Positions 35,605 through 59,969 of a stretch of DNA of 64,000 nt are shown here, in pieces. The stretch lies in contig NC_045132.1 of NCBI RefSeq assembly GCF_007655135.1, forward strand, positions 13,640,001-13,704,000, written 5' to 3'. The stretch comes from Punica granatum. Lineage: Eukaryota > Streptophyta > Magnoliopsida > Myrtales > Lythraceae. The translations under genes were made by a program, and so were the position numbers. Every line of letters starts with the position of its first letter. Positions within the stretch are counted from its first letter, which is position 1. The notes beneath the pieces were generated by a model. That model had not been told where the DNA came from. It searched no databases and saw only the letters and a list, made by a program, of their open reading frames with translations.

Positions 35605-35745
35605 GAGTAAATTGACAAATTGGTCCTCTAGAGATTAAATGTACATCAGATTTACCCCGAGAAATTTTTTACATCAGTTTAGACCTCCACCTTAAAAATG
35701 TACATCGCATCCATCCTTCCGTCCAATTACCGTCTAATCTTAACA
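35605..35745. mobile_element. Mutator-like MITE fragment
   Basis: Begins GAGTAAATTGACAAATTGGT and matches 55896-56016 closely ('tttaccccgagaaatttttt', 'catccttccgtccaa'). The second inverted arm is missing. Confidence 0.65.
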
Positions 35746-35794
35746 GACTTATCCGCTTGGCTCTGTCGTTCTTTCATCTTCTCAACTTTCCTCA

Positions 35795-35829
<35 letters not shown>

Positions 35830-36269: not shown

Positions 36270-36577
36270 GTGCCCGCAAAAAGCCAATGGTCTGGTGAAT
36301 CGTGATGGAATATGCAAAAGATGGCTCGGTAAGGCAGTTCTTGACGAAAAGGCAAAACCGATTAGTTCCACTCAAATTAGCCATTAGGCAGGCACTAGTT
36401 GTTGCGAGGGGAATGGCTTGTGTTCATGGGCTCGAGTTCATTCATCAGGACCTGAAATCCGATAACCTCTTGATTAATTTTTATCAGACTAAAGATTGCT
36501 GATTTTGGAGTTGCAAGGATTAAAGTGCAAATTGAAGGGATGACACCAGAGACTGGAACTTATCGCTGGATGGCTCC
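36270..36577 (+). pseudogene. Raf-like (HT1/STY group) protein kinase fragment
   Basis: An exon bounded by AG (36268-36269) and GT (36578-36579) encodes the middle of a Raf-like MAPKKK catalytic domain. Its motifs are [45 protein letters not shown] and [11 protein letters not shown]. Defects: a TGA where the family has Cys before IVxEY, the catalytic HRD read as HQD, and a frameshift in about 36480-36495 before ADFG. The ATP-binding lobe and the C-lobe after the APE region are absent. It is a dead fragment. Confidence 0.88.
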
Positions 36578-37780
36578 GTAAGAAGTTCTCTCTTTGGTGC
36601 TATCGAAGTTGCATTGTTTCTTTGGTTGACCATTTAGATGCATTTTGTGCAGTATAATTTATTACAACTCTTTATTGGCTTTGGGTATGATACCAAGTTT
36701 GATAATACCCTTATTTCCCATGGTTCTAACTAGTCAAATGTAACTTGAGGTGGGCAATTCAATTCAAAGCATGCTACATCTCTATCCACTGACCTTTAAG
36801 CTTACATTGACGTCATGTCCGGTGCATAGAAATGGACTCTTTTGACAATAGAATAGAGTGTAAAATTTTATTTCGAGATTCCATGTTCATATTTCTCCAC
36901 ATGAAACACAGCATCAGAGTTTGTAGCTGAAATGTCCTGCTAGTTTTTGCTACTCCATAACTTTGCTGCATGACTGTTCTACAGGAGACCTATTTCAATC
37001 TCTGAAATTCGTTAATTTACTCTTGTAGGAATGTTGGACATGTGTATTAGGCAGTTTTGTAAGTTGTAATGACAGACTTACTGTCCTTTATGTTTCAACT
37101 TTTGTGTAATGCAGTTTTGCAAACCTTTGCAGATAAGTTAATGAAGTTAATGTGTTGTTCTCTCAACTTCTCTCTGTTCTGTTCATCTGCTATATATGTA
37201 TTGTGTATACTATTAGTATTATCATTTCCAGTTTGCTTATTGTTTCATGGTTTTGATGAATGTATGACTGATTGTCAATAAGTTGTTGATATTTCAAATT
37301 GGTGGATGAGCTTCCTTGTTAGAAATGGATCAGTATTGCATGACTGTTCTATAGAAGACCTATTTCAATCTCTGGATGACCAATTCAATAGTTTACTGTT
37401 GTAGGAATGTTGGACATGTGTATTAGGCAATTTTTAAAGTTGTAATGACAGACTTACTGTCCTTTATGTTTCAGTTTCTATGTAATGCAGTTTTGTAAAC
37501 CTTGGCAGCTAAGTTAATGAAGTTAATGTGTTGTTCTCTCAACTTCTCTCTTTTCTGTTCTTCTGCTATATCTTTGATCTCCCTTTTATTGTTGTTGCTA
37601 GTTTGATTTGGTTGGAAATAGGTACATAAGTTTGTTTATATATTGATAAGAAGTTGTATTTATGTGAAGTCCAATCTAAGCTTATGTACTTACGAGATTT
37701 CTGCTGTAAACTATTATGCAATGTAAGAAAATTGATAGAAGCTCAATAACATTCTTTTCTGTTGCCACTATCTTTTCTTT
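36578..37780. repeat. Intergenic DNA with a 370-base-spaced direct duplication
   Basis: The segment 36968-37194 recurs at 37338-37571 with moderate divergence ('gaatgttggacatgtgtatt', 'gtaatgacagacttactgtc', 'gttaatgaagttaatgtg'). No exon was recognised apart from the kinase end at 36577. A partial unit of the following tandem array starts near 37731. Confidence 0.65.
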
Positions 37781-38812
37781 TGAATTGACAGAAGCTTAAC
37801 AACATTTCTTCACAACAAGATTGCTTCAACAAGACTAAGGAACCCGACAGATATATATAATATAATTATATGAATAAGATAAGAAGTTTAATATGCATTG
37901 ATGGAACTCAATAAACACATACAAAGGAGTCAATATACCATTGAAGTTCATATCAGATACATACCAGTCTTGACAAGCCTAAATAAAGAAACAAATTCTT
38001 TTCTTCTATTAACATTCATTACCACTATAAAGAAAGTCTTGAATTGATAGAAGCTCAACAACATTTCTTCACAACAAGATTGCTTCAACAAGACTAAGGA
38101 ACCTGACAGATATGTACAGTACAATTATATGAATCAGATAAGAAGTTCAGTATGCATTGATGGAACTCAATAAACGAACACATACAAAGGAAGTCAATAT
38201 ACCATTAAAGTTCATATCATATACATACTAGTTCTCACAAGCCTAAATAAAAAAAACAAATCAATTCCCTTGCTCTATCAACATTTTTTGCCACTATATA
38301 AATAGAGTCTTGAACTGACAGAAGTTCAACAACATTTCTTCACACATTTATTGCTTCAACAAAACTAAGGAACTCGACAGCTATATACAGTACAATTATA
38401 TGAATCAGATAAGAAGTTCAGTATGCATTGATGGAACCCAATAAACGAACACATACAAAGGAAGTCAATATATCATTGAAGTTCATATCAGATACATAAC
38501 AGTCCTCACAAGCCTAAACAAAGAAACAAGTCCCTTCCCTTGTTCTATCAACATTCCTTGCCACTATATAAACTAAGCCTTGAACTAACAAAGGCTAAAC
38601 AACATTTCTTCACACCTTTATTGCTTCGACAAAACTAAGGAACCCGACAGTTATATACAGTACAATTATATGAATTAGATAAGAAGTTTAGTACGCATTA
38701 ATGGAACTCAATAAACAAATGCATACAAAGGAAGTCAATATACCATTAAAGTTCATATGAGATACATACCAGTCTTCACAAGCATAATCAAAGAAACAAA
38801 TCCCTTCCCCTA
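37781..38812. repeat. Tandem array of four units of about 260-270 bases
   Basis: Units start at 37781, 38040, 38311 and 38581, each with 'caacatttcttcaca', 'cgacag.tatata', 'cattgatggaa', 'cacatacaaagga' and 'acaagcctaaa'. No reading frame is conserved. Its position just beyond the 3' side of the MULE transposase makes it a possible subterminal repeat of that element, but no matching inverse copy was found. Confidence 0.8.
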
Positions 38813-39118
38813 GATATAACAAATACCAAATCGATATAGGATTTGGATTTGGTACCTGTTATACAAAAAATACAGTACTTCCACAATCTAACAGGCATAT
38901 ATGTGTTTAACTCCCTAATATTAAGAATTTTGGCTGCCTAATATTAACACATTTAGCTCCTTCCAACTTTACAAAAAGAACCATCCAACTTTACAAAAAG
39001 AACCACAATATATACCTTATATCACTTCGAACTTTACAAAAAGAAGCAAAATATATACCTAAGATCAGGAAATTCAAATCTGGTCAAAAAATTACAAATG
39101 GCATTACCTAACATTTCT

Positions 39119-41508
39119 TCAATGTGAAGGGGGCCTTTGGTTGAGGTTGAGGTATCTAGCAAATCTTTTTGCAGTTACATGACCAACAACATGCATGGTT
39201 TCCGATGACATTGATTTCTGTCCCCTAGACACGAATTGAGTAGGTACTGATCTGCTGATTTGCTGGTTGGGGAGCACAGTCCATGGCCTTATAGGAGGGG
39301 GCCTAAATGCAGGCACTCCTCTCACAACACTTTGTCTACCGAGCATTGTCATAGTTGGTGTTACTCCAAAGCTAAACCTCCATTGTAATGTCAAATACTT
39401 AACATCAGCATACTCAAACAACCAATACATATTCAATGCTTCAAACACATTAATACGTACCACATATGAGCTTGATGCAACTTGAGATGGCACTACTGAA
39501 CTTGAAACAATCACTGATGAACTTGAAGCATTCCTCAACTGTAGAATATAAATCTTTCATGCTAATCAACCTATTTGCAAATTTACTTATAAAAAAAAAT
39601 AATACCAGTTAATATATACCTGTGCGGATGGACTTGGCCTTTCAGGTAGGAAATCTTGACCTACGAGAGGAGTCCCCTGCATTGTGACCCGTTTTATTAT
39701 TAGAAAAATAAAAGCACATCGAGTAAAGTATAATGAAAAATCTTTAAACATTTACCTGTGTTGAAGTAGTGTCATCAGATATAGCAGCTGAATTAGTTCC
39801 ACTAGGCTCCACATTGGATTTCTTAGAAAAAAAATTCCCTTTTTTCTTTGAACTTAAAGTAATTGAAGGACCTTTGCAAGTCTTAATGTTGTGGTTACTG
39901 CCTCCACATTTCCCACAAACTATAGGATCTAAGCTTCTTTTCAGCTTGTATGGATCTTTTGTTCCTCTGCTTCCTTCTTCCTTTACTTCTTGGGATGACC
40001 AGGTGGCCTCTTTAACTTTGGAGGTTGGACAGGGTTTTTACTTGTTTTTGTCCAATATTCCTCACCGACAGTCGGTTTGATGAATGAACCATACAGCTGC
40101 TCATGTGTGCTCCTTGAATACCATGGATGCACAAAATCTTCAGGCTTCAAGTTATTATAGCCAATGCAAGTAACTGCATGCATACAAGGAATCCCAATAA
40201 GGTCCAATTCCCTGCAAGAACATGTATGCATTTGTAGGTCCACGACACATTTGGAATTTAGAGGGCAGGTGACCTCAAATTAACCATATCAAGATCACTA
40301 GCCCAATGTGGAGTCCAAGCAACAACTCTATTTTTCATGATCTCCAATTTAGTTTGAATTCTAAGGCATAGTGGACCTTTGTATTTGGCCATTTACAGCT
40401 TGCTCCTTGTCATCTTTTTCATAATATACATTCTGATCCCTTCAGCCATAGTGATGATGGGCTTACTCCTAACTTTCATTATCTCAGAATTAAATTGCTC
40501 GCACATGTTATTTTTTAGGGAGTGATTCTTTGAGTATGTATCAAATGCCGACCCGGTCCATATGTCAGGTGGTAATTTGCTCAGCCAAAGCCATCCTTCA
40601 GGACTGATTGTCTTTAAGTGATCCATCCTCTATTGAAATTGCTGCTCAGTTGCTACTCTAACACAAACCCAAAATGCATCCTTCAACTCTTTACCTGGCC
40701 AATTCTTGTTGAAATTGGCCCAGATATGCCTAGCACAAAACCTATGTGGTACTCTTGGGCAAATCTCTTTTAGAGCAGCATCTAGGCCCTATAAATATAA
40801 AGTAATTGGATTAGTAATAAGCAAAGGTGAATACATAAGTAATGAATGAAATAAATTAAATTTAAACATACATTTTGCATATCAGACATGAAGCTAAAAC
40901 CATTGAGCACAAGATCCCCTAAGTCATCCACAAGATTTCTGAGAAACCATCTCCAATTTTATGTGTTTTCTACATCAACTATTGCATATGCTATTACATA
41001 AAAGGCATTATTTCCATCTTGAGCGACAGTTGACAGAAGTTGGCCCCCCAAAATACCCCTTCAGGAAGCAACCATCTAGGCCAATCAGTGGCCTGCAACA
41101 ACTCAAAAATCCAGTCTTACAAGCCTCCAAGCAATACATACATTCTCTGAAAATGTTGTGAGACTGGAGCAACATTCAGTCCTACACTCAACCTTGGGTT
41201 GCTTTTTAGAAGTTCATTATAGTAATCTCTTAGCTTAGCATATTGTTCCTTCTCTGAACCCTGACATGTCGTATGAGCAATACATAGGGCCTTGGAGATC
41301 ATAGCATCTCCCACTTTCACTCTATATGTGTGCATCAAGTAATCATAAGCTTCTTGTCCAGTCATGCTTGGTTGGAGCCTAACCCTTGGACCCCAACTCA
41401 CTCCCTTGTAGCCAACTTATTATGCAACCTTCTACAACATGTATGTTCACTCACAAAGGTTTTCACTTGATATGTGTTGGTCTTCTTGTTCAGTGAGCAC
41501 AATATAAC
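39119..41508 (-). pseudogene. MULE (MuDR-type) transposase, C-terminal three quarters
   Basis: Read on the minus strand from 41508. First comes ILCSLNKKTNTYQVKTFVSE-HTC, the end of the MuDR N-terminal domain. Next are LATRE and QPSMTGQEAYDYLM. The transposase core starts RPLIGLDGCFLKG (first catalytic Asp, about 41060). SDMQNGLDAAL carries the second, after removal of an 83-base intron at 40789-40871, with HRFCARHIWANF beyond. NNMCEQFN follows. The SWIM zinc finger is CSCRELDLIGIPCMHA (about 40220-40160). Then a zinc knuckle CGKCGGSNHNIKTC and a Ser-rich tail to 39119. An in-frame TAG (near 40632) and frameshifts near 40270 and 39985 inactivate it. The N-terminal part is absent here; a matching N-terminal part is at 57324-57904 (+). 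Confidence 0.88.
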
Positions 41509-43697
41509 CACAGTTGCTCTGATTTCATAATCCTGCTGCTTCTTCACACACACAAACGCACAACACACAACAACCTTCTTTGTAAAGGTTTTTCCCCCGG
41601 GGAAAAAAAATTTAAAGTGTTTTCGTGCTCCAAAATTACTTTCATGTTTCAAGTTTGGGGGAGGAAGTGCCTTTCCCCGTTCAGCTTTGCTTACTGAAAT
41701 ATAATCAGACCATGCCCATAACCTTGGACTTCGAATCCCACTTTTTTTGCTTCAATATGTTTTTATGATAGTTCTTCCCAGAGGGATGGCCATGCATATC
41801 CTCTGTTTTGGTTTTACATCAACTCTTCTTTAATGTATTAAATTTTGGCACGAAGTGAATAAATGGACAATGGAAATGGTTCTTCAAACAGTTTTGGGTT
41901 ATTTGTCCATCTATCATGCTATCTGCAAATTGGAAATGTCCGATATTTATTTAATTGTCTGTGCAGGCAGAGCATTCTTGGTGCACCTCTTGCTATTTCT
42001 GATGTCATGGGTAGAGGTGAGCTCCCCTCTCCATGTCGAGCTGCCATGAGTTTGTCCTGTTATTCATTATGTCTCACATTATTTCTGAAACTGCATTGTT
42101 TCCGCTTCCCCTAGCTTACAGCTACAGAAATCTACTTCTACCATGTTATGAGATTGGGAATATTATTGCCCTCACAGTTGGGTTATCTTTGCATAGTGTC
42201 CATTGATTCTTACTGTTCATGTTTCACTATTGTTCATCGTATTTTGTACTTTCCATTTTATGCTTGCCTCTCCACGTTTCGAACTACCTTTTTTTAACCA
42301 TATTGAGTCTCTGAGGTTCAAGCTTTAAACAGCATAAGCTTGGAAGTTGTCAGTGTGTAGAATAATAGATCTGAGCATGTTGGACCTGTTAGTTGCGTAA
42401 AGAAGAGTTAATACGTAAGGAATCAGATTGGGAATATTACTGCTCCATGCCTTCTATCGGACTTGACTGTTTTATCCATTCTGCATCTAAATGAGAGTGT
42501 ATACTTTTTAGAGAGGTTTTTTCCCTTAGAAAATACTTAGCTTTTTCCTTGTTGGGTTGCTGAGACATTACTGCGTTGTCAGAGTTGCTGTTTTTGAATA
42601 GGAGGCCGAATGACAGTGCATACTGCTCGTAGTATATTGCATTCGTCTACCTTTTTGTCCTTTCTGGAATGCCGTGATCAAATTTGATTAGATAGAAAAG
42701 GGAGAGAGCAACATTTCGTGTATTTTGAAATCGCACTATATGTCTGGTAAACGATAGTTATTTTTTCATCTTTTGTGGATCTTAACCCTGGAAGAGTGAG
42801 CTAGCTCCCTTTGCGCTCAAGAAGTCCTTGCTATCGAGTCGCTGAACTTCTGATACGGTTTCTATTCACTTAAGTTAGAATACATTTGCTTTCTTATCAT
42901 GTTGCTCCCCAATCCAAATGGTTAATCTCGAGAAATTATTTGATGTTGATTTTTGATCGCTTTGCAGAGTTGTGAACCATGTATAATTCTCATCCGTGCT
43001 TAGGGTACTTCTGGGTCTGCATGAAAGAAGGTTGAGTTGAGGGGCGTGATCACCTGGCTTATGGATATTTCGAGGTTCTACGAGGTGGCAGTTGTTCAAG
43101 TGGAGGGCTACCATAAGTTCGTCCACAAGGAGGCAGAAGCTGCGGCTTCAATATCAGCCACCAGGACCTGCTCCTTGACATGGCCAAGATCCACAACCAC
43201 CTTCTCGGCCGGTTTGAAGAGTCTGAGCTGGCCATCTGCGACAAGGATAGGTTACATACCATTACATTCGCAGTATATCATGATTTTTATGAGTCAAATT
43301 ACCTATCCTTACTGTCAAGTGTTGTTGCGATTGATTCAGTAGTTAAGTATCTCTATAAAGTTCATCTTCTGAATTTGTTCTGTCATCGGTATTAACCAGG
43401 ATTCAATGGAGAGATCGGAAACCAAGTGGAGGCTGCGGCATGCTATGGAGCTGAAAGAAAGAGAAGTTGGAGTCTCTGAGGACAAAAAGTGAGGGATTTG
43501 ATTAGAGCGAGGAAGGTGAGTTGAAGTTTAATGGGCTTGAAAATTTAAGACCAGCATGTATGGTATGTAAGAAAAGTTGGAGGGAGCTTATGAGCATTGT
43601 GGCTTCGCAATTGATTGGGAGAGCAACCTAGGCAATGAGACCGATAACAGGAGAATTGACCGGATGGATTGAACATCATAAACCCGAACAAGACGCA
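41509..43697 (+). other. Unrecognised exon-like remnants
   Basis: Non-MULE DNA from the breakpoint onward. Segments bounded by splice-like signals are present: 41967-42016 (encodes QSILGAPLAISDVMGR in one frame, followed by GTGAG) and about 43027-43250 (one frame has HLAYGYFEVLRGGSC, a stop, then GFNISHQDLLLDMAKIHNHL). A third, from 43400, has a Lys/Glu-rich stretch. They read like parts of one plus-strand gene, but stops interrupt them and I do not recognise the family. Best treated as a pseudogene candidate. Confidence 0.35.
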
Positions 43698-44330
43698 AGG
43701 GTGGATTTGTTTTTTTAAAAAATTTCAACTCAACTCAACTCAACTCCATTTATTTTCAATTCAACAACACAATCATTACTTTTTTTATTTTTAAATATTT
43801 TGAATCATTCAATTCAATTTTTAATATTAAATTCTATCAACTATTCATTACTTTTACACCATTCAACAACACCATCATTACTTAATCATTACTTAATCAT
43901 TACTTTCTCTCAACTATTCATTATTTTTTCACACTTTTTTTCATAATTCAACAATACAATCAGTACGTTTATTTTCGCAACAAAGTTTAACTCAACTCAA
44001 CTCAACTCCACTTATCTTCAATTCAACATCACAATCATTATTTTTTTTATTTTTTTAAATATTTTTAACCATTCAATTCAATTTTTAATATTAAATTCTC
44101 TCAACTATTCATTACTTTTTTACAATTCAACAACACAATCATTACTTAATCATTATTTTCTCTCAATTATTTATTACTTTTTCACACTTTTTTTCATAAT
44201 TCAACAATACAATCATTACAAATCAATTAAAACCAAAACTCAACTCAACTCAACTCTCAATCCAAACACACTCTAATTAAAATTAAAACTCAACTCAACT
44301 CAACTCTAAATCCAAACGCACTCTAATCTT
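43698..44330. mobile_element. MITE family B, tandem dimer
   Basis: Two adjoining copies (boundary near 43985) of the element also seen at 52294-52602, here in the opposite orientation. Each has 'caactcaactcaactc', then 'ttcaattcaacaacacaatc', then 'attcaattcaatttttaata' and 'ttcataattcaacaatacaa'. The right end is itself doubled (AATCCAAACACACTCTAAT, then AATCCAAACGCACTCTAAT), as if a second insertion or unequal exchange occurred at the end. Confidence 0.7.
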
Positions 44331-44970
44331 GCATTTGGGAAGATGCAGAGCACAACCTTCTCATGTGATACAAGCCTCATGGAGCAGCAGGAGAGGCAGG
44401 CCATCGAAAAAGATGTTACTGCTTCTTGTTACTGCTTCTTTGATCAAAGGGTCCATTTGGGATGTTCAGCAAAGTCTCGAGACTGAAATTTATGGGTGGT
44501 CGAGAAGAGAAGATGGAGAATGTTGATCTATACAATTGAAGTCTATGAACTCAAGCAAGAAAACGAGTCGAAGCTTCGGGAGAGGACAATAAGCAGGCTT
44601 TATGTAGATCTCTTACATGTTCAGAAGTGAAGAAACAGAATGTTCATCACTGATTTCTCTTTCGAATTTGAGTTAGTCATTGTTGAGATATTACCTTTGC
44701 AAATTGGTTTTGATAGATTAAGTGCATGTGCACTATATCTCAAGGACAAAGTCTAAGGGAGTTCTTTGATTGAAATAAGCTATAAATACACTAATGCAGC
44801 TTATTGATGAAAAGAATTGCCAAGTAAAAGATATAGTTAATTGGAATTATATAGCATCTAACGAGTTATTTTAGGGGTCCATTCTAATGAAATAATGGGC
44901 TGTTCTTTGGACGATTCCATTTTGGTTTCACTTTCTTTACATGCTCATTAGTTATATTGTCTTTAGATAA
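44331..44970 (+). other. Exon-like coding remnant, unrecognised
   Basis: About 44340-44630 contains broken plus-strand frames with helical, charged sequence (one reads LIYTIEVYELKQENESKLRE). They may continue the remnants at 41967-43500 after the MITE insertion. No family is named. Confidence 0.3.
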
Positions 44971-45002
44971 TGGCTCGTGCAACGCTCGTGCATCTTCACT
45001 AG
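44971..45002 (+). mobile_element. Helitron-like 3' terminus
   Basis: The imperfect hairpin GCTCGTGC-AAC-GCTCGTGC is followed by 'atcttca' and CTAG before T (44999-45002). This resembles common plant Helitron ends with a decayed stem. The 5' end was not found. Confidence 0.4.
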
Positions 45003-45434
45003 TATAAAAAAAAAAGTTGAATAGATTTAATTTTTTCATCTAAATTCATGTAGCTAGTTTTATCCTGCCAGAAACAATTCAATGTTGGTTTTTATGAGCC
45101 AATATTAGAGATAAGCTAACTATAAGTTATATGACTCTTCTATTAGTATAAATCCTTTTTTTTTCCATTATAACTCTTCTATTGATAATAATTTTGTTAG
45201 ATAATTAATATATGTTATGTTTTTGAAAGTCAAATATTAGGATGATCTACTCGATATTAATTATTTTTATTATTCTTATCTTTGTTGAAGAATTATTTTC
45301 TCTTGCCAAATTAGAAAGACATTTTTTTTGGGTGAACAAAAGAAAATTTTTTAAAATGTATACTAAAACATTAATAAAGATTTTTAGTTTTTATTTCTAA
45401 TCCAGCGCATCCTATGTGTCATCATCTAGTGTGT

Positions 45435-45480
<46 letters not shown>

Positions 45481-47375
45481 TAATTTATTAATAAGAGATT
45501 AGTTGTAATAGTTAGGAAAAAGTATATGTGAGAATTTATTATTAAATGGAAAAAAAAAAGATAAAACATATGGATATAAAAATAGATGGAAAATTTTATT
45601 ATTAAAAAATTAGTTGTAATAATGGTTATGAAAGGAAAATGCTCTTCCTTCCGATATGGAGGATGACGTAGCATGCCTACTCTCTCACAACAAAAAATTA
45701 CCCTTGATTTTGTCAATAATTACAAAATTAACATTTGTATCTATTCGCCCCAATTTTCTAAGGGTTAACTTAGAAGGAAATAGCATTACTCGTTATGAAA
45801 AAAATAAATGCGAGAATTTATTATTAAATGGACGAAAAAGACCAAAAAAAAGTAATAATTATGTTGTTAAATTGAAGAAAAAGTAAAGTGTAGTGGGATT
45901 TGTATCCACAACTATACGGCAACTTGAAAATCCCAAAGGTTTTCATTCAACTATTTGAGCATGAGACCATTAGGCAAGCCCACCATAACTTTGCTTTCAT
46001 GTATACTAGAAAAAAAGTTCGTGCGCGCAGTCGTGAGAGTAATGTTATATAAATTTCAAAATTATTATAATTTTGTTAAATTTTTTATATCTTCTTATTC
46101 ATGATATATGATATTCTCTAATTTTCAGTGTCTTGCTATATTTGAGAACTACATGATAATATTTGAAAAACAATCATGTTAAACTAATTAAATATATTTT
46201 AGAAAAAGGTATAAATTAAAAGTTAAATGATGACACAATCATATCAAGATGCAAATTTAAGGAAAAAAATATATATGGAGCATTTATATTAGTTCTTATT
46301 GTGTTCGGATAAAACTAAGGATTTGTTTGACAAAATGTTATAGTCTTCTGTCATGCTAATTTCACATTTATTTAAGTAACTTTAGTTTGTATTGAAGGCA
46401 AATTATATCCATTTTAGCAAGCTATTTTCTTAATTTAGCAAATTCAGAATCTCGTATTACATTCTGTTGATGATTATTAGAGCAGGAATCATATAAACAA
46501 TAGTTTAATAAAAAAAATTGAATAACCATGTAAAGATTATTTGGTTGAAAAAGTCCAAAAATTTAATTCCTCGAGATGTCATCTAATGCCTGAGCACCAA
46601 GTTAAGGAGAGTGTCAAACTCCAAAAATTTCCTTTTTAAAAAGTTCCTTCTTTTTTCTTCTAGCGTGAAGAAAAAGAGAGAAAGGAGTTTTAAATTTTTT
46701 TTAACAAATACTTCATGGAGGGACACATGACTAAAAGAGCTTGGAACTCTCCGTTAGCTTAATATATATAAATATATGTAAATTAAGTTATAACTCAAAA
46801 CTCTCCTTTAGATATGTGATGCATAAGTCTAACGCCTTTAAACAACAATTTTTAAATTTTGTTTGTTAATATTAGTGCTATATTATTAAAAAAAATTGCA
46901 TTAACTTATATTCATAAAATACATGTATACGTTTAAGGACATAGTCATGTTTTGAAAAAAATTTCGAGTAATTAATGAGAATATGAACATTGTTTGAAAA
47001 AAAATTCAAGTAATTAATGAGAATATAAACTTGTATTATGCGTTTGATTTAGAAAACATATATGATAAAATATTTGATAGTTCCATGTAAAAGGATTTCT
47101 TATAGAAGATTGTGAAATTTACGAAATAGAAAATAGAAAATAATCGTAATAAAATTAAGAAAAATAATACATAATTTTTTTATACATAATATATGACCCT
47201 TCAAGAAACATAAAAACAATATATTATTTTTATAAAATTCATTTTTATTGAAAAGTACTATTTCAAGCGTTTGTATTATTGAAAGTATGATAACTTTTTA
47301 AATATAAATATAGAAAGAAATAGAACATGTCCCTCTTCAAGGCTTTACGACCTACTCTATATTTTTATTATATAA
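45003..47375. other. Very AT-rich intergenic DNA
   Basis: No gene. It holds an AT dinucleotide run at 45437-45478. An inverse CTAG end at 46006-46009, preceded on the minus strand by a GC-rich stem-like stretch (CACGACTGCGCGCACGA), may be another Helitron end. Short open frames here are products of low-complexity sequence. Confidence 0.5.
45437..45478. repeat. AT microsatellite
   Basis: About 21 AT dinucleotide repeats, uninterrupted. Confidence 0.95.
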
Positions 47376-47846
47376 GGTGAATAATAAAAAAATCACAAAC
47401 TCTTTACATTTTAACAATTTACGCACAATTTTTTTCCTTAACCTAAAAATGTATAAATTTTCGATTTGAGAACAATTTTATTACTCATTAATTTTGACGG
47501 AATCGAGGCTATAGAAGGTGTCAGTGCCACCAATCGAGGGGTGAGGGCCAGAGTCGTGACTCTATCTGCCAGAACCAGGAGAATTCCCAATTCGAGGATT
47601 CTCCCAATTTCGAGAGTGAGGGCATCGATTCCGGCCACCACCCCCGATTGGGGTCGCCAGCACCCTCCCTCTGATTGGGGTAATCGACGCCCTCTATGAC
47701 CTTGATTTCGTTCAAATTAACAGAGAAAAATTGATGTTATGTTAGAATTATTATCAAATCAAAAGTTTGTGCATGATTAAGAAAAAAAAAAAGTTCGTGC
47801 TATAATGATTAAAATATAAAATTTGTGCTTTCTTGATTATTAACCC
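47376..47846. mobile_element. MITE with inverted ends and a GC-rich centre
   Basis: The left end GGTGAATAATAAAAAAATCA, and the inverse complement of the right end GGGTTAATAATCAAGAAAGC, are similar over about 45 bases. Both continue with 'cacaaa', 'ttta.attttaa' and 'gcac.aa'. The core (47500-47700) is GC-rich and contains repeated words around 'cgattgggg'. The flanks are too AT-rich to define a target duplication. It is probably a Mutator-like non-autonomous element. Confidence 0.55.
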
Positions 47847-48510
47847 TATTATAAATATGTAAACTACCATCTTAGCATTCGTTTTTCTTTTTTAATAATG
47901 AAGAAACAAAGGGGTTTGAAGGTTTAAATATTTTATTAAAAATTAACTTAGAATGACACACAGCTAAAGGAGATTTCTAAAACTTATTGATATAAATACA
48001 TAAAGAATTAGAACAGGTCCCTCTTAAAGGCCGTACAATATAATCGATATTTTATTAAGTATATCCTACCATCTTACCATTTGTTTTTCTTTTTTTAATA
48101 ATGAAGAAACAAAAGAATCTGAAGTTGTAAATATTTTATTAAAAATTACCTTACAATTATACACACACACAAAAGATTTCATCATTCTGTTTCATTTCGT
48201 TAATACCCATGACCTTTACATTAAGGTTATATCACCACTAGCAACCATGATGGAACATTGTCAAACACTCTACTCAAACTAAGAACTTTAAATCCATCAT
48301 CCATCCAAGGTGAGTGTATCAATACACCACCACCAAGTGAATCTCTTACATCTACGCCGCAACAAATATAAAGATTTCCAATCAACAAAAACCCAACACC
48401 GGTGTCACCGCCTCAAATTTCGACATTCCAATCATGATAACTGAACTATTATCTCACTAGGAAATCTTAGTTACATGACTTGCAAGAAAGGAGAAAAATA
48501 ACTGCCGGCA
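47847..48510. other. AT-rich DNA downstream of the ALF4-like gene
   Basis: Short words are repeated between 47875-47960 and 48065-48150 ('accatcttac.attcgttttt', 'aataatgaagaaacaaa', 'aaatattttattaaaaatta'), a small local duplication. The 3' UTR of the gene probably lies within 48200-48510. No other gene. Confidence 0.5.
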
Positions 48511-51500
48511 CTATTTCAGCTTTGCTTCAACCAGTTCGATGCAACGATACAAGACAACTTCCACTGGATAGAGGCCGCATACCATGTCCCCTACAAGGTG
48601 ATCGCAATCGTTCTTGTTCTCTGCCAAAATGCTAGTCACCAGAGTTCTCAGAGGCAGAAGCCACTCTTTGTATGCCTTCCGCAGGTTGGTCTCTGAAAGC
48701 ACTCTGGAGTAGTTGGTGTTTCCTGATGAATCACAGTTCAACATACAGTCCAACCAAACCAGAAAAACTACAAATTTATAGAGAAACCAATATAGAGATG
48801 CGGAGAGAAGCTGCTTGAGAATTGAAAATATTGTTATCTGTGACACAGAACGGAGATGTCTTTAGATTTCATGAAGGATGTGTTACCTCTAGACTCTGCT
48901 ATTAGTACGAATCTGTAGAGATTAAGGGCAGATGAAACCTGTCATGTTAAGCCACAAAGCAATAAGCTAATTGCTCAGCCAAACAAAAACATCAAATTCT
49001 GAATAAAGAGGGGTATTATCCAATAGTAAGATTTGTGATCATAATTGCCTCCAACGATATAAAAACTATATAACAAATTCTCATCCTTCACATATACAAA
49101 AAATAATAATAATAAAATAAAAAAAAATCTCATCTTCATTGAATTGATGCTGAAGTGGAAATTGACCGAAAACTCTCAACCTAACTAGCAAAATATAATT
49201 AAGAATTTGCAATAATTTAGTATTGCAGAATTACTATGCTTCCTGTATTCATTCATTTGGAGTCTGTAATTTCGAGCTCACCGTATAAAGGGGGACTGAA
49301 GGTGGTAGGTGGGGGAACAAAGAGGTAACCTGTTTCATTGTATAAAAACCTTTTCTACAATCAGCACTACACGCTCTGCATTGTATTTCCTAACACAAAC
49401 TGGGAAAATTTCCATGCCAGATATGGCCTCATATGTAGTGAGAATGATAATTACCGCGTCAGTCTCCTCTGGAAGAGCCGGAGGCCCACCCTTAGATGGC
49501 CTCAAAACCAACTCAACCAACTCCAGAATACTTCTCCAAAATGGACCTTTCTTAGCTCTTTGATTTGCTTCCCTTCGCATTTCTTCCCTCACACAATCTA
49601 GAAGGATTGCTGTCTGCAAACATAAACGTAACTCAACTCCAAAATAATAAGCCATAAAAGCCTATAAGACATTACTTTTCAAGCTCACTTAATGCATTTA
49701 CCATGGAGGGAGAGTTGCTATGCATAACCAGGGCTTTTAACATATCGAACCTTTGAGAAGTTGGAATGTCAGCAAGCACCTATGCAGGTTGATGCATGAC
49801 AAGAAAAGATTCATATCATAAGAAATTGGAGATAAAAAAGCATATATAATTTTCAGAGCTTTGCAGCAATGGATAATGATCTTGGAAAACTCATAATAAG
49901 GGACAACCAAGAATCTAAGAAAAATAAGCACGTGCATTAAGGGACTAGAGAAACTTTAAAGACAAAACCCCTTACTCTTTTCAATGCATCATATGCTTTC
50001 TTCCTTAATGGTGCATCAGGTGAATAGATAATAACCATTTGAATACCCTGAAATATTCACGCCATCAGAGGAAATATCAACATAGAATACAAAGAAGTGC
50101 AAAACAGCCGAAAACCATTACCTGCAAAGCTGCAAAAAGGCTAGGGAGGAAGGACAAGAAATCTGGATGTTCACCATCAGACCCTCTCAAGATATCTCCT
50201 TCTGTTATGCAAAACAAAAAGTCAATGGCATGTTCCTTTAACCTCCAAGGTAGATCAGCCGATGAGAATATGTGCTTTAACATGCCAATCGCTCGCCACC
50301 TTTTGGTCTGGTCATGTCGAAGTACGTTCTCTACCGCACCCAAGTCTTCTTTAGCAGACTGTGCAACGTCATCAGAGATATAGCCCCAAATCACTGCATT
50401 GATACGACAACAACTGTAATTTGGATACAGGCCAAAGAAATACAGACAGACTCGTGTATGTCTTGGGGAACTAAAAATTTCATCTGGAAACTAAGTTTGA
50501 TGACAATTTCTCATGCCACAAGTGCTCAACTCCGAAGTGCTTATAAAGTATATGCTATCACTCCACAATTACCACAACACATCAGTTGCTAAAATACTGT
50601 TGCCATGGCTCATTCCCTTCCAGGAAAACACCTTTCAACCACCACTAGTGAGGTCGTTCCAGACTATGATGACACACGGCACAGTAGCCCCTGCCTTTAG
50701 CTGCCCGGCCCAGGTAGGGGCTGGCTTGTCAAGATTCTATAACAAGCTGGGCCTGGGCAATGCAATTGGCAGAGCAACAAAGAGTTGTAGGAGTGAAACA
50801 ATAAGATCTATTAATAATCTTTGTAGAAACTATTTAACTGGTTTAATTCTTCATGATAATAGACAACTTAGCAGCTAGGGCAGGATTGGACGTTTATCTT
50901 GTGTCTGATTGTAGTGATTGGCTAGGTTTGGACAGGCTAAAGAAAAGAAGCCTCAAGATCCACGCATCCTAAATCCAGTACATGATCATGTCTACTTCTG
51001 AGGCTTGATTTTAGCATTTAGGTGGTAAGAAACGTGACTTCATTTTCCCATTTTCCTTTTATTGTTTGGTTTTTCTGTCTAAAGGCTTTGCAAAATGCTC
51101 TATCAACTCATAACGACAAGAGAGGCATTTCCAAAACAAAGCATAACCACAATTAAAACTACGGAAGCCAAAAAAATGCAACTACCCAGTAAAAAGTATC
51201 TGTAGATATGTACCTGAAAGAGAGGCTCCCAGCTCAACGTTCGAAAAACAAGATTGGACATCATCATCATCTTCTTCTGGTAATGTGATTAAAGTAAAAG
51301 CTTCAAGGGAGGTATGAAAAGGAAGACTGGAGTTGCTAGTGAATCTTGGATTATCATAGATACAAATGTAGAATAGCAGCTTACCTATGAAGCCAGTCAA
51401 GTTGTCCATAACTGACCCTGATAATAAGCTCACATAAGACAGTTGACAATGATGGAAGAAGCATGAGAGTTGAGACACCAGGGGAAGGCAGTTTGGGGAT

Positions 51501-54500
51501 CTATCACCAATGCTTAATGAAACAAAAGCCTGCACATCAGATGTCCATAAGGAGTTAAATATCAAGATGTTTGACAACATCATGAGAAAGAAAGAGAGGG
51601 TAGAAAGAGAGGATAGAGAGAGAGGAGGCAAAGAGTAAAGCTCCCGCTAACTCGTCAGAGCAGCAAATTCTTTCCCCCATTTGATGACAGAGGAAACACC
51701 ACGAAAAGAGCATAATAGATCGAATCTCAGTGCAAAAATCCAGCCCCTTGACTACCCCACATAAACCCATATATCAGGTTAGACTGGATTCCACAGGCAA
51801 GTGGTCTCACCAAGGGTTACACACGACATGGGTATTCTTGGGATAGGAGGTACACAACCTTCCACCAATATACGAATTGATGGTGTTTGAAAAAAGCAAT
51901 CAGGTTTCAAGTTAGAAACGAACCATAATTTGCAATATGTACAAACCAAGGAGAGCCCGCAGCTTTACACGAGACACATCCTCCTGTTGTGAAGAGCACA
52001 TTAGGATAGGGTCAACATGGCATGTTGAATAATTCTGAAGAATCACGGGAGCAGTTAAGTGCATAAAAGTGATACAGACCAACTTTTGATGAATAGTGCG
52101 TATAGAGTCAGCAATGTCTATAGCCCTGCCAAACAAATTCTCCAGATTTTCAACCTCATCATCCAACTCCAGAGAAGCTTGCTTTAAAGCTTGAAGGATC
52201 ACCGGAATGGCTACTTTTGTTTGCTCGAGTTGACGCCTTTTAATTGAAAGTAAAACTGTAAGGAAAAATGGAACATGTAATCTCAGTTATTCAGAGTGCG
52301 TTTGGATTTTGAGTTGAGTTGAGTTGAGTTTTGGTTTTAATTGGTTTGTAATGATTGTATTGTTGAATTATGAGAAAAAGTATGAAAAAGTAATAAATAA
52401 TTGAGAGAAAATAATGATTAAGTAATAATTGTGTTGTTGAATTGTGAAGAAGTAATGAATAGTTGAGAGAATTTAATATTAAAAATTGAATTGAATGGTT
52501 AAAAAAATTTAAAAAATAAAAAAAGTAATGATTGTGATGTTGAATTGAAGATAAGTGGAGTTGAGTTGAGTTAAAAAAATTTCAAAAAACAAGCACACCC
52601 TCAATGTGCAGAAGTAATCTAAAATTTGTACCAGTAAAAAAATCTCACTTCTTTTTACATAAACTTGGATGAATAAATGCTCTTGTGGATGTAATGGGAT
52701 CATATTGGTTGAAAAAAGGAAAAATTAAAAGGGTCCCTAGGAAACACTTTTATTTGAATTTCAGACCATAACGGAAGAAACTGACAAACTCCCCACAAAT
52801 TTCCAAGAAAAATGATTCTGGGGATTATGACCTCCAAAAATATAGAGTACTAAAAAAAGCATCAATCCTTCTATCGTCAAACTTCTACAGCGTTTCAGGC
52901 ACATCAAAGTCATAGGTACTACAAACACATTAGATATTCTACAAAATAAATGAATTGAATAAATTTAGTAATGGAAATGCAACAAAAAGAGCATCATGTA
53001 CAATTCATACAGAGAAGCTCTTGGGCAGATTTCCCACTGTTTAGTTGCAATTTGTGGCAGTTAAGCATCAAATCCCAATCAATTAAGTTGCAAGACAAAA
53101 GTTCTTCATTGATAGGCAGCGTCAATCTGCCCCTGATACCGGGATATAAGAAAACTACCTTTTGAGATTCCACCTAGAAGAGGGTTAAGATAGAGAGAGG
53201 CGTTGACCTTTTCACCCGATGAATTTAAAGCCTGACCCAATAGTGACAAATTATGTGTTAAGCTCAATCAATAGCCACCTTAAAAAGCAACATGATGAGT
53301 GTTGCTGATTATAAAAATCAAGATCGCACTCAAATAAAAGCACGACCAAGCACCATATTATTACTCATATATAAAATCACCAACATATTTCATAAAGCTA
53401 GATCACTGAAGAGATCTTAAATGCCACTCCTGGAAGATAATGTGATGAAAGCATCAGCATGACATGACAAATGGCTGCATAAAACAAGGAAGAAAAATCC
53501 TTTGACCCATTCAATCCCAACACTAAGAGAAAAGGGATTTTCTATTGACTTCTCACAAAATTTTAGGGCTCATACTCATAACTGCGGAAGAGAAAGTCGA
53601 TAAATTAACTTTATTGGAAAAGGCGCACATAATTGAGCAAATGGATTGTGATCCACTAGTCACACTGAATGAATATGACCAGAAAGATACCTGATGCAAG
53701 ACCAAGCAAACAAGTTGAAAGTAAATAACCGGGGGAGCTTTAACTGAAAAAATCTAGCAACAAACCTCACAAAGAATTGTGAGCATGTCCCGTGGATTGC
53801 ACGTCAACACGAGCTGTTCAACAATGCTTTCAGCAATGGTCGAAAACATTGAGGAGGCCCGGGAGAACTTGCAAACTTCTTTTGGTAAAATAAATGATAG
53901 TGCATCAATAACTTCCTGCACACAAAATCTCTAGCTTTAAACTCATTATCAAAGTGAGCCATAGCACGAATAACGTCTGTTTCCGACAAGATAGATTAAG
54001 GACCTCTTTCACTGATGGTGAGCAAATGTACGCAAGAGTGTGCATGAGCATCTCGATTGCATTATTACACACATCTTCATTCACAGAGTTGGAAGAAGTA
54101 GCAACTGACTCAGATGCAGAATCAAGAAATTCAGCAAGCTCTGACACCGATTTCTCGGATTGACTGATATCCCTGCTCTCAATGGACTGCAATGCATATA
54201 AATTTCAAGTATTAATCTTTCATCAGTTAGGACAACAAAACGAACATTGGATGACGTAGGGGTATTATTCACTTTCATGTCGTGCTTCTTTCCGGATCAG
54301 AGACCTAGGGATGAATACTACATTAATAACAGAACTTGAGAAAGGGAAACTTTTTTTTAAATAATTTGAGAGCATCTAAACTTTTTCATGCCCATACAGT
54401 GAAACTTCATCGCCGCAATTTCAGCAACTCTCCCTATTTAAACAACCCATGTAAAGCATGTGAAAATGCGGGAAGTCACGAGACAAAAAGCCTGAACCGA

Positions 54501-54874
54501 TTTCCAGAATCATTAGAACAAAACAAAACTGAACAAAGCATCGTATCTTCAGTCTTCTTCATTGTCGCCAACTTTCATATCATATGTTAATTGCGGTTAT
54601 CCTTAGACTGTGTAGCATTATTTTCTCCTACATCATACATGCATTCTCGGACTCTATAAGCCTCCTTTCACCGTGATTCAAACTTAAACAGTAACGATCA
54701 CTGAAGTTGGATTAAGCCAAGCTGTGCCTGTAACAGAAAAGATAGAGAAAATACACATGGAAGCTCCAGAAGAGAGGTAGAATTGACGGGCCTTACCTTG
54801 AGGATATTCTGGAGGCGAAGCAAAAGAGGATTTGAAGAAGAGGATGAAGGTCCCGCGTTGTCTTTAATCTCCAT
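48511..54874 (-). CDS. ALF4: ALF4 / aberrant root formation protein 4, 14 exons
   Basis: Exons on the minus strand: 54874-54797, 54186-54013, 53915-53766, 53231-53159, 52255-52080, 51983-51924, 51529-51385, 51276-51214, 50393-50122, 50047-49976, 49779-49702, 49613-49455, 48938-48887 and 48722-48511. All introns are GT-AG. The exons join in one frame to 587 residues ending at TAG. The start is ATG 54874; the open frame runs upstream only from a GTG. Typical segments are SVSELAEFLDSASESV, EVIDALSFILPKEV, NPRDMLTILCEALNSSG, ASLELDDEVENLENLF, KLRALLGLYILQ, and KEWLLPLRTLVTSILAENK with VVLYRCIELVEAKLK at the end. Arabidopsis ALF4 is needed for lateral root initiation; it binds RBX1 and restrains SCF ubiquitin ligases, as animal glomulin does. 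It is largely helical without catalytic motifs. No defect was seen. Confidence 0.92.
52294..52602. mobile_element. MITE family B, copy in an ALF4 intron
   Basis: Starts GAGTGCGTTTGGATTTTGAG and has four GAGTT repeats. Its middle is 'gattgtattgttgaatta' and 'gaattgaatggttaaaa'; it ends 'caagcacaccctc'. The same family forms the dimer at 43698-44330. It lies in the intron 52256-53158, its near edge only 38 bases from the 3' splice site. Confidence 0.75.
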
Positions 54875-55302
54875 GAACGGCGATTCGTCGCACCAAAACT
54901 TGCTAATTAGGCTACAAACGGACACGGACTATTGAGTTGAATTGAAATTCGGACGGCAGATGAAGAGGAGGAGGCGATGGTGATGGGAGAAGTGAAGAGG
55001 GAGTTCAGTTCGGTGGGTATTTTGCTCGGATCTCCGGTGGGGCTTTTGATGGGGGTGGGGGTGAGAGACCGGTGAGGGAGGAGGGCGGAGAAGGAAAGGC
55101 CGCCACCGAAGGAAGAAGGAGACGGACGGGAGCAGCAGCAAGCAAAGCAACAACTGGCGGACTGTTAGGGCTGGGGCTAATTTCTAAAGCAAAAAAGTTC
55201 GGGGCCTCTGTTTTATATTTTTTCTTTAAGATTCGGAACGGAGAAAGTTCGGATTTCAAACAAAAAGGCGCGCGAACTATAAATATAAATGCACTTTTGG
55301 CC

Positions 55303-55333
<31 letters not shown>

Positions 55334-55895
55334 TTAATTTTTTATAAACATTACTCTTTTTTTTCCTGTGTGAGCCCTATAATTCAGACCCACAATTTGG
55401 CTACGACTAATTTAATCGAACCGAGTCGGCCCACTAAACGATAAAACTCTCCCAACGTAGATTTTCTGCATTAAAAAAAACTCAAATTTAAGACCTTACT
55501 TAAGTCAAATAAGCGCCGAGTCGCTTGAACCGATCTGTATTGGTAAAATATTGTTTTGATAGATAAAGAGCATTTCAATCTTTTTCTTTCATTCGATTTA
55601 TGTATTCATTGTTTATTCTAACCAAGCAAGTACAAAAATTTTTGTTGTCGATATTTCTATTCCAACCAGACATATAAAACCTTGTGAGTATTGTAATCGT
55701 TGCCCTGCCGATTTATATCCTCCGGCTATAACTTTCATTGTCTGTTACATCGGAGGAAACCAAACGTGACGTAAAAGAGTTTTGAACATGTTTCCCATTT
55801 GATCATGGTTCCGACGAACTGGAAATACAATTTGCCTCAGCTTTGTGATTTGATAATAAGCTTCCCTTTCAAATCAATATAAATGAATTGATAAA
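54875..55895. promoter_or_regulatory. Upstream region of the ALF4-like gene
   Basis: The first 300 bases upstream of the ATG are GC- and purine-rich on the plus strand (CT-rich on the gene's strand), typical of a plant 5' UTR and core promoter. There is no unambiguous TATA box. An AT run lies at 55308-55334. The open frames on both strands here have biased composition and no homology I can name. Confidence 0.5.
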
Positions 55896-56126
55896 GAGTA
55901 AATTGACAAATTGGTCATCTAGAGATTAGATGTACATCAAATTTACCCCGAGAAATTTTTTACATTAGTTTAAACCTCCACTTTATAATTGTACATCACA
56001 TTCATCCTTCCGTCCAAGTCTGTTCAATTCCGTCCAAATGTTGGAGGGCTAAAGTGATGCAAAAAATTTATGGAGGTAAATGTGATGTATATTCAATCTT
56101 TAGAGGACCAATTCGTGAGTTTATTG
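55896..56126. mobile_element. Mutator-like MITE, foldback
   Basis: The left end GAGTAAATTGACAAATTGGT and the right end GACCAATTCGTGAGTTTATT are inverse. The inner parts also pair ('gatgtacatcaaatttaccc' against 'ggtaaatgtgatgtata'). The left half matches 35605-35745. No target duplication is clear. Confidence 0.65.
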
Positions 56127-57049
56127 AACTGTGCCTTTAAATTTTTTATTCTTTTCTACTGTTTCATCCTTTATTCTTCCTTTCCCTCACCTTGTTTTAG
56201 AAAAGTGTAGCAGAGGGCGGGAAACGAAACTCTACAAAATCGGCTCTGTGGGTTTCGAAGAAGATTGGTCCTATGTTGTTAAGCATTTTGGTTTTTGGGT
56301 TTCGAAGAAAATCGGTCATGTGTATGCAGCGTGCTACTAGCTTCGACAATCTGAAGGTAGGTAAGGGAGTTTATTACTTGCATTGCCGATTTTTTGGTCC
56401 CCTACTTGTCTCCTTGCTCTGATGTGTTGTCATTTGTAATGAATGTGGTCCCCTACTGTTCCTCTTCAATGTTGTTGTGGCCCAGATAATGATAAAGTTT
56501 CTTTTTTTTTCTTTTTTTAAAACCAACTGTGGTCCCCTACTATTCCTCGTCGATCTTTTCCTTGGTAGTGGTTTGCTGCTCTCCGTTTAAAGAAGACGAA
56601 TTAGTTTCAACAAAGGAAACTGATCACAAAGTTAAAGCAAAGAAAAAGTAAAATGATTGAATAAATTGGAATGACAATTGTTTCCTAGAAGTAGGAGTGC
56701 TTGTCGTAGCTGTAACTGTAACTTTCATCTCCTGTGTGAAAAACTGTAGCTGTAGCTATTGCCACAGATCTTTATTCATGCATAATTTGAAAGTCTGGTC
56801 CTATAACAAGGAAAGAAAAGAGTGGAGAGTGATTCTGGTTGTTGTCATTTTTCTTCATTTAGGATGGATTGGGGGATTGAAGAAATGGGGATGTTATCAT
56901 CTCATGGGAAGATTTCATTAAATGATTAGTAAGACAAGAAAATAAGGGAAATTAATTAATTAATGGATTAATTGTGGTGGCTTTAAGTTGTCTTACGAGA
57001 AGAAAATATTAGGGCCATCTCCCAATATAAGGAGATAAAAGGCCTAGCA
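56127..57049. other. Intergenic DNA, nothing recognised
   Basis: Short open frames on the plus strand (56131-56340, 56697-56921) have no recognisable feature. The phrase 'ggtcccctact' occurs three times between 56394 and 56540, so some of this is repeat DNA. Confidence 0.45.
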
Positions 57050-57190
57050 ACCCCAAGGTGTTTGGCCTAGTGGTTAATGTGCACTCAAGTTTGCATCGAG
57101 ACCCGAGTTCGAATCCCCTTGGGGCTATCGGAGCGCCTTTGGTGTAATTACCAGCTCCGTGCGCCGCCGGGAGTTCTGTTAGTATCCAAA
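57050..57190 (+). mobile_element. tRNA-derived SINE
   Basis: The A box TGGCCTAGTGG (57063-57073) and B box GTTCGAATCCC (57107-57117) are spaced as in RNA polymerase III promoters. CCCCAAGG (about 57050) pairs with CCTTGGGG (57117-57124), like an acceptor stem. The T arm does not pair, and a non-tRNA body follows ('ggagcgcctttggtgtaatt', GCGCCGCCGGGAG). It is therefore a SINE head rather than a tRNA gene. Confidence 0.7.
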
Positions 57191-57323
57191 GCGAATCTTA
57201 AACGACCATATAGATTTATGTCTTATGTTCATTCTCTTTGCTATAAAAGTATTTGAAGCTTCCATCCCTAATTCTGGTATGATGATGATCATGAATATAT
57301 TGAATCAAGTAAGCCAGGTTTAG

Positions 57324-57904
57324 ATGTATGAGGTACACCACGTAGATGGTGGAGGTTATGGATGGCAGTTTGCTACTGGAGGGAGTACATCGCATGATGC
57401 TGGTGCTAGAGGGTCTGGACTGCAAGTCGCTGGTGTTGAAGGTCTGGACTACAGGTTGCTAGTGTTGGTGGATATAGCATCGAAGAGGCTCAAATGCAAG
57501 ACAAGCCAAGAGCTAAAAGAAAAGGGAAGAACACAAAAACCAGGTTCAAGCAAAGAACAGCTGAAGAAAGAGAAAGATTGTTTGCAGAGCAAAAGAGAAT
57601 ATTTGCAGAACAAGAGATAAATGTTGAGGTGGAGGATTTAGCCATCATTGATCCTTATGACACAAATGAGCTAGAGTCTCTTAAAGGTGATGAGAATGAT
57701 GGGGAGGGTGTGCAGTTACCAGTGTTTAATTAAGCAGCTGAGTTTGAACATATTACAAAAGAGCTTGGAATGGAATTTCCAAATCTAAAAGTATTCAGGA
57801 ATGCAGTGAGGGATTATAATATTAGTAGGGGAAGGGAAGTTCGATTTAAGAAAAATGAGTCCATAAGGGTGAGGGCGAAATGCGTGGAGAAAGAGTGTAA
57901 GTGG
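57324..57904 (+). pseudogene. MULE (MuDR-type) transposase, N-terminal fragment
   Basis: Open plus-strand frames encode a Lys/Arg-rich linker and an acidic stretch (VEVEDLAIIDPYDTNELESL). After a TAA at 57731-57733 comes the conserved MuDR N-terminal domain: MEFPNLKVFRNAVRDYNISR, GREVRFKKN and RVRAKCVEKECKW. Homology stops right after TGG at 57904 and unrelated sequence follows. In MuDR proteins the CxxxxCxW segment continues directly into the piece that begins the minus-strand fragment at 41508. A few residues of the family, such as the VREYNI.xGREV.FKKN core, make the assignment secure. Confidence 0.85.
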
Positions 57905-59969
57905 TAACCCAGCGAACGTGGGGCAAGCCGACGTAGACAGCATCAGAGCATAAAAGATGCATACTAAACCATGAAGGGAGGTGTTGTGCCGGTGGCTAAA
58001 TTTATTTTGCGGTACATCAGCTAAATATTTAAGCATGGCTATCATGCACATGAGAAGGCTTGACACGAAACAGAGCTGAACCAGATTCATGGCCATCACT
58101 GATTGTCATTTCATGTGCATGTAATGTTACAGTATCCAGTTTGCTAAAAGAAAAGAAAATTAACTGGTAATATCAATCAAATGAAACAACTGTGTAAGCA
58201 TAACTTTCAAAATGAAATGCACGCCCTTAAAAAGTACCAACTATTGAGTGCAACCAAGAGATCACAGTGCAAGTTCGATTAGAACTTACAAAAAAAAAAC
58301 CTGGATTCAGATCAAGCTCGGTAAAGCCATGAACAATGAATACCTGACTACTATGAAATGTCATCCTCTTATCAACTGGTAATGAGACGCTTCATATTCT
58401 ATTCTATATGCAAAAGCAAAACAGAGAAAGGAAAAAAAGTGCGGGAAAATTAATAGACTTAACCATAGATAGAAGAAATATAAACATGGAGACATGTTTG
58501 ATACTGTGTATATGTCATTGGTGCCCCCAATTCTAGGGATACAGTCCAATTGGTATTGAAAGTGTGTTAAAATTATGAATTGTTCCTACATCCATGCTAA
58601 TAACTTAACTGTCTTAACTTTGCATCGGACTTAGAGAAGAACAGACAAAGTGATAAATAGAGGTGCTGCCAAAACAGACATAGAAGAGACTGAAGCATAA
58701 ACCCCTTTAGGGGTGGATCAGATTATCTTGCCTAATAGCTTCAGCAGCTCCGGCTTGTAAGACGAAGTAATGAAATTGACCATGAGTTCAGGCAGACAGT
58801 TGCAACATCCCTGAAACACAATTCCTGATCATTAAGTTTTAAAAGGAAAAAAAAAAGATTTTGGCAAGCCACCTCCCAGTCTTGAGCATTAAATGCATGG
58901 GAGTGAGCATCATAAAGAGACAAACCTTATCCAAGATCCCTCCAAACAGTCTTGGAGAGCTTCGAGAACCAATAACAAGAAAGGCAAATAAAGATCAAGA
59001 AAATGATGGCGAATCATCCTTCAGAAAGCTACACACATAACTCATAACTAATAAATATAGAAGAATGCTGCACAATGATGATGATGAATGGTGGTGATGG
59101 TGACCGAATGTAGGACTGAGAGATTGAGAGGAGAGAGATAACAATGAAAGACTGACATGTAGAACGGAAGAGAAATGCAAGAATGATGTCAAGTGAATAA
59201 TATTTTCCTTCATTTTTTTGGTGTGCACATAGTATTTGAAAGTTGATAAATACGCACTGGCTAATTCAGATAGAGTCGGATTGCGATCCACGGGTAAAAA
59301 AATTTCAGCATGCATTTCTCTATTCAGAATACTTAAACTTGAGATTTTACTCAAGATAAACAAACGTTAAACCACTTGAACCAACTCTTATTGGTTCTTT
59401 TTTATTTTAAATTATAAGAATACTTTTTGATTTTTCAACCACATCTTATAAATTAAGTTGTAATGACAAAATCGAATTTTCGCTTAAATAATAAATTATA
59501 TTAATATAAGTGTATAAAAGTATATTTATATGTTTTCTTGTCTTATAATAAATTTATTGAAATTTTAAATCCCTGAAAAATCACTAGATTTTGATTTATA
59601 AATCACTTTGTCATGCACCATTTCTTAATGCCTATAAAATGGCCCTGTATAACTAAATAATTTGAAACATGAATATCTATTTATAAATCTAGCAATTACA
59701 GAAATAACTAGCCTTTTAGTCTGTGCATGGCATAGGTGTCTGCATATTCCATTTACAATCAATATTTTTAAGTTATTTTTGGATTTCAATTTTTCCAAGT
59801 TTTTAGGTGATTTTGTTTTTTTATTTGAAATGTTTTTTTTTTCTTTTTTCCTAGAGCCACAATGAGAAGATATCTAGAATTACTTGAGGTTCAAATCATT
59901 AAAAAAATGCATAACTAATTAATGAAATAATTATGAAAATTCATGTTCAAATTAATAATAGAGACTTAT
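57905..59969. other. Intergenic DNA right of the MULE fragment
   Basis: No complete gene. It contains a possible terminal exon pair on the minus strand (58718-58990) and AT-rich repeat DNA from about 59400. The minus-strand open frame at 57785-58099 lacks any recognisable feature. Confidence 0.45.
58718..58990 (-). pseudogene. Possible 3'-terminal exon pair of an unknown gene
   Basis: On the minus strand a frame with GSRSSPRLFGGILDK ends at AAG before GT (58926). An AG acceptor at 58811 then opens a 31-codon exon in the same phase (GCCNCLPELMVNFITSS..., ending at TGA 58720-58718). The 115-base intron and matching phase argue for real exons. No upstream exons were found, so this is a fragment. 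I do not recognise the family. Confidence 0.3.

Follow-up and report, generated by a model that had tools for sequence, protein, structure and literature searches.

A split Mutator-like transposon points to a 16.4-kb inversion carrying ALF4 in pomegranate

We find that a Mutator-like element (MULE) in pomegranate lies in two opposite-strand parts, 55896-57904 (+) and 35605-41508 (-), which together amount to 7,913 bp. The arrangement is almost certainly that of a single 7.9-kb insertion that was later cut by a 16.4-kb inversion, with the breaks probably end-joined (Table 1). The element entered the locus as one insertion, its halves meet in an exact join, and the comparisons below fix both breakpoint positions and the change of orientation. 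A preliminary description of the window (the whole 64-kb stretch of DNA analysed, C6:13,640,001-13,704,000) had proposed that an inversion of 41509-57904 split one MULE, and had listed two coding parts, 39119-41508 and 57324-57904. The MULE extends well past these. The proposed inversion is borne out by the termini of the element, by its target-site duplication and by ten family copies that are contiguous across the join.

Table 1. Features of the split MULE and its surroundings, in window coordinates; the inverted order is known from one assembly.
Feature	Position	Strand	Evidence or remark
5' part of split MULE	55896..57904	+	2,009 bp; blastn colinear with family copies
3' part of split MULE	35605..41508	-	5,904 bp; colinear with family copies in blastn, L026 giving the most complete match
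5' terminal inverted repeat of MULE	55896..56017	+	starts GAGTAAATTGAC
3' terminal inverted repeat of MULE	35605..35726	-	91% match to 55896-56017
Target-site duplication, 5' end of MULE	55887..55895	.	ATTGATAAA
Target-site duplication, 3' end of MULE	35596..35604	.	TTTATCAAT, reverse complement of ATTGATAAA
N-terminal transposase remnant, end ...ECKW, one stop and one frameshift	57324..57904	+	three-frame translation, tblastn, PF03108 1.3e-11
Transposase gene remnant from VILCSLNKK on, stops and frameshifts	39119..41508	-	three-frame translation, tblastn, PF10551 1e-13
Protein-kinase gene fragment within MULE	36299..36499	+	PF07714 7.9e-10
270-bp tandem repeats in MULE 3' part	37780..38809	.	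Tandem Repeats Finder, 3.9 copies
Left inversion breakpoint, inside transposase gene	41508..41509	.	10/10 compared copies join 41508 to 57904
Right inversion breakpoint	57904..57905	.	family-copy comparison
Inverted segment, 16,396 bp	41509..57904	.	single inversion that would rejoin halves, termini and target-site duplication
ALF4 (aberrant root formation protein 4)	48514..54874	-	tblastn P0121, P0122 whole-length; PF08568 on P0121

The join between the two parts is exact at the protein level. We used tblastn with P0001, an annotated pomegranate relative of 592 aa, which confirmed the location and strands of the two coding fragments. Residues 45-197 match 57446-57904 (+) and residues 198-236 match 41508-41392 (-), with a gap of 0 and an overlap of 0 between the two matches. 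We extended the comparison to a set of MULE proteins consisting of the best 120 of 173. In 68 of these a match ends no more than 6 nt from a breakpoint, and in 34 this is true of both breakpoints; the residual gap between the halves is 0 residues in all 34. Thus, the codon that follows ...ECKW (57904) is the start of VILCSLNKK (41508), as had been claimed. When the joined halves were used as a blastp query, the join was spanned by 87 of the best 120 (of 173) proteins and not by 33. The two join residues are adjacent in 84 of the 87 spanning proteins, and the remaining three (P0092, P0111 and P0115) have larger gaps there. The MuDR DNA-binding domain (PF03108) is matched over profile positions 3-52 of 67 by the N part alone (44.4 bits) and over positions 3-67 of 67 by the joined halves (49.8 bits). 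The C part, read through, matches the MULE transposase domain (PF10551) at 1e-13 (51.9 bits against a cut-off of 27.6), and the SWIM zinc finger (PF04434) scores 18.5 bits against a cut-off of 19.6. No further coding piece of the MULE family was matched within the 64-kb window.

The same join is found intact in the DNA of other family members. A genome search with the N part gave 20 matches, one of which is the window copy itself. Ten of the 19 others, at 84-94% identity, were compared after fetching about 10 kb around each; the other nine, of which four match more weakly (66-73%) and five are short pieces (two within copies already used), were left out. In all ten compared copies the base corresponding to 57904 is directly followed by that corresponding to 41508, with nothing inserted or lost. 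Eight copies read GTAAGTGG followed by GTTATATT at the join; the other two, with a different base there, read ATTATATT. Because extra sequence between the halves is present in none of the ten copies, the claim of a seamless join stands.

Five near-identical copies (L028, L030, L031, L032 and L033) are 7,896-7,902 bp long, with L031 counted from 1185, and two other copies, L026 and L029, measure 8,765 bp and 7,240 bp. The five lie on C4, C7, C5, C2 and C5, respectively, and show pairwise identities of 99.5-99.9% over their whole length. Together with their perfect target-site duplications (see below), this indicates that a branch of the MULE family has been active recently in pomegranate.

The ends of the element also testify to a single insertion. 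The terminal repeats, of about 122 bp, are inverted in the family copies and direct in the split copy, as is predicted if an inversion has flipped one end of an inverted pair. The same termini are found in the family copies in which both ends were located; the start at 55896 was set by these copies and the end at 35605 by the matching terminal repeat. The pair 55887-56017 and 35595-35726 returned by a repeat search corresponds to these terminal repeats. The 9-bp sequences that flank the two termini agree at 9/9 positions when one is reverse-complemented and at 4/9 as they stand. Of the 63,992 positions in the window, 4 carry this 9-mer in one orientation or the other, and both duplication sites are among them. 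As a control we examined the seven copies for which both ends could be placed (those of L027, L034 and L035 were not settled): the five near-identical copies have perfect duplications of 9-10 bp at the same termini, that of L026 is perfect at 10 bp, and L029 matches at 8/9. An earlier target-site scan, which on the 3' side covered 36500-39115 and so had the true end outside its range, gave a best score of 22 against control-pair maxima of 19 to 23. The intact join in the family copies, the direct termini and the reverse-complementary duplication together show that one insertion was later broken by the 16,396-bp inversion, and they uphold the proposal that both halves derive from one copy.

We assessed the relative ages of the halves from trees of three segments, with ten other copies each for 57370-57904 and 41508-40375 and nine for 40374-39774, where the coverage of L035 was under the limit. 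Each tree places the window copy in a pair with L026x (support 0.96, 0.88 and 0.997, respectively), with terminal branches of 0.033, 0.040 and 0.045. By raw identity, L026x is also nearest to the window copy in 57370-57904 and 40374-39774. In 41508-40375 its identity of 0.909 is behind that of seven copies (the highest being L030, at 0.929), although the tree still pairs it with the window copy. Identity to P0001 does not differ between residues 120-194 (69/74) and 195-573 (337/375; Fisher p 0.52), and is 149/167 over the whole aligned N part. The shared partner and the similar branches thus give no sign that the halves differ in age.

These results bear directly on the suggestion that the parts are two unrelated copies, truncated independently and placed by chance on opposite strands. 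Although the genome contains ten or more further members of the family, such an origin is vanishingly unlikely given that the halves abut with zero intervening bases in 10/10 comparisons and that the fragment lengths sum to that of an intact copy (7,913 versus 7,896-7,902 bp). It is further contradicted by the presence of one terminus on each fragment, the two carrying a target-site duplication common at 9/9 positions. An assembly error, in which 41509-57904 is reversed in the assembled sequence only, is also very improbable. Orientation errors in assemblies usually need repeats or gaps. The window contains no N, and hence no marked scaffold gap, and 401-bp stretches around each breakpoint have no long repeat in common (best E 1.2 or worse). 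The present order is seen in one assembly only, but this assembly, which appears to be that of 'Tunisia', is reported to have been built from PacBio reads with a contig N50 of 4.49 Mb (PMC7061868).

A more complex history, through excision and inverted re-insertion or through several overlapping inversions, could have led to the same net result. The net result alone is visible, and the second ancestral junction (41509 to 57905) was not recovered; however, a single two-break inversion accounts for every feature with no extra steps, and we regard the longer routes as scarcely probable.

One insertion followed by one inversion would have proceeded as follows. A 7.9-kb Mutator-like DNA transposon integrated about 1 kb in front of the start codon of ALF4 and duplicated 9 bp of its target site. 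Two double-strand breaks would have occurred later, one within the transposase gene and the other past the 3' side of ALF4, and the broken ends would have been rejoined with the intervening 16.4 kb reversed. As a result, the 5' 2.0 kb of the MULE forms one edge of the reversed segment, with the other 5.9 kb outside it on the opposite strand. A single inversion step is the history that we infer, probably with little or no homology used in end joining and with no base lost on the MULE side.

The sequences at the breakpoints narrow the ways in which the inversion could have formed. Recombination between inverted repeats was rejected, as no long inverted homology was found between the 401-bp stretches around the two breakpoints. 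Alternative transposition was likewise rejected, the break being about 2.0 kb inside the MULE and both termini and the target-site duplication being intact. Thus, neither repeat recombination nor transposition at the ends fits, and nothing that we found implicates the transposase or the MULE ends in the break. Breakage and rejoining by end joining is probably the cause, as the likeliest and simplest candidate. The preliminary description had pointed to GTGG at both breakpoints as compatible with short-homology joining. The motif is literally present, but it is one base out of register: the sequence exactly common to both breakpoints is 1 bp, and the GTGGT shared with a 1-nt offset is equalled by 110 of 5,000 random position pairs. 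Short-homology joining is therefore at most hinted at. We also considered whether a host gene had been cut at the right breakpoint, through a possible last exon at 58140-58029 (-). An X-padded query of 660 aa, which confined the protein search to lengths of about 363-1,155 aa, gave no match, and neither did a search of solved structures; no such gene could be named, and this claim was dropped.

The root-development gene ALF4 lies entirely inside the inverted segment, as had been described, and each of its exons is matched in the pomegranate proteins P0121, P0122 and P0124. The MULE begins 1,022 bp before the ALF4 start codon, so that the gene was flipped as a block with the 1 kb of sequence directly upstream of it. 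An effect of the inversion on ALF4 is possible. It is improbable that the inversion arose recently, still varies between pomegranate cultivars and alters ALF4 expression and root traits by swapping the upstream neighbourhood beyond about 3 kb; if it were so, the split MULE would be a ready marker.

Several other features of the window were recorded. The CRG98 annotation of ALF4 (P0124), which we take to be from 'Taishanhong', places the last exon at 47524-47700, whereas the 3' end is at 48514 in P0121 and P0122; the difference is perhaps a gene-model error. A 238-bp inverted repeat (44043-44280 and 52287-52524, 94% complementary) lies within the inverted segment and not at its breakpoints, with one arm beyond the ALF4 3' end and the other between two ALF4 exons, respectively. 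A short transposon present twice probably accounts for the arms. At 17164-17630, bacterial-type large-subunit rRNA is matched twice, which probably marks an insertion of organelle DNA in the nuclear genome.

Within the MULE, the surroundings of the protein-kinase fragment (35727-36963) have a 90% match in L026x and none inside the five near-identical copies, and in L027x and L029x the match to this region is limited to about 105 bp. The split copy and its sister L026x are thus transposase-bearing MULEs with a protein-kinase fragment. Identity as a Pack-MULE, which is defined by the absence of a transposase, was rejected because the element carries a transposase remnant as well as the kinase fragment. 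Relative to L026, the window copy has about 95 bp extra at 57056-57171, just upstream of the coding part, in which tRNA-like promoter boxes can be seen by eye. This is perhaps a short SINE remnant; a second copy was not found in the window, and ARAGORN gives no tRNA. At 57275-57278, 176 bp of L026 are absent from the window copy and the flanking matches overlap by 4 bases, which may be why the N-terminal start of P0001 is missing in the window copy.

The locus represents ordinary genome evolution, unusually well documented. The transposon serves as a ruler: from the unbroken join in its sister copies, the breakpoint and the polarity of the inversion can be fixed to the base with no need of an outgroup. 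Applied genome-wide, the same test (contiguous copies, direct terminal repeats and an inverted duplication) could reveal small inversions in one assembly. A literature search returned nothing on this locus among the matches listed, as judged by title or start of abstract. A comparison of the 'Sanbai' and 'Tunisia' pomegranates is reported to count 117 inversions (PMC11979328), and ALF4 is absent from the main text of that paper. Two recognised routes to inversions are described for plants, namely breakage followed by end joining and recombination between repeats (PMC7093584). Inversions being common in pomegranate and their routes recognised in plants, the split MULE adds a well-proved case to a known kind.

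With its MULE and MuDR domains, long terminal inverted repeats, 9-bp target-site duplication and insertion near the 5' end of a gene, the element resembles the Mutator-like elements (MuDR/MULE superfamily) of flowering plants. Unlike them, the window copy is a decayed pseudogene, bisected by a later rearrangement. In the maize inversions attributed to alternative transposition, the breaks are reportedly made by transposon ends. Those inversions are similar to ours in having a DNA transposon at a breakpoint, as described in PMC8225341, but the pomegranate break is in a coding region and the MULE ends are intact. There is also a likeness to the small end-joining inversions of plants reviewed in PMC7093584, which are of kilobase scale and have two breakpoints without long shared repeats. 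Unlike in those cases, one breakpoint here lies inside a transposon that can be used as a ruler, which resolves breakpoint and polarity to the base.
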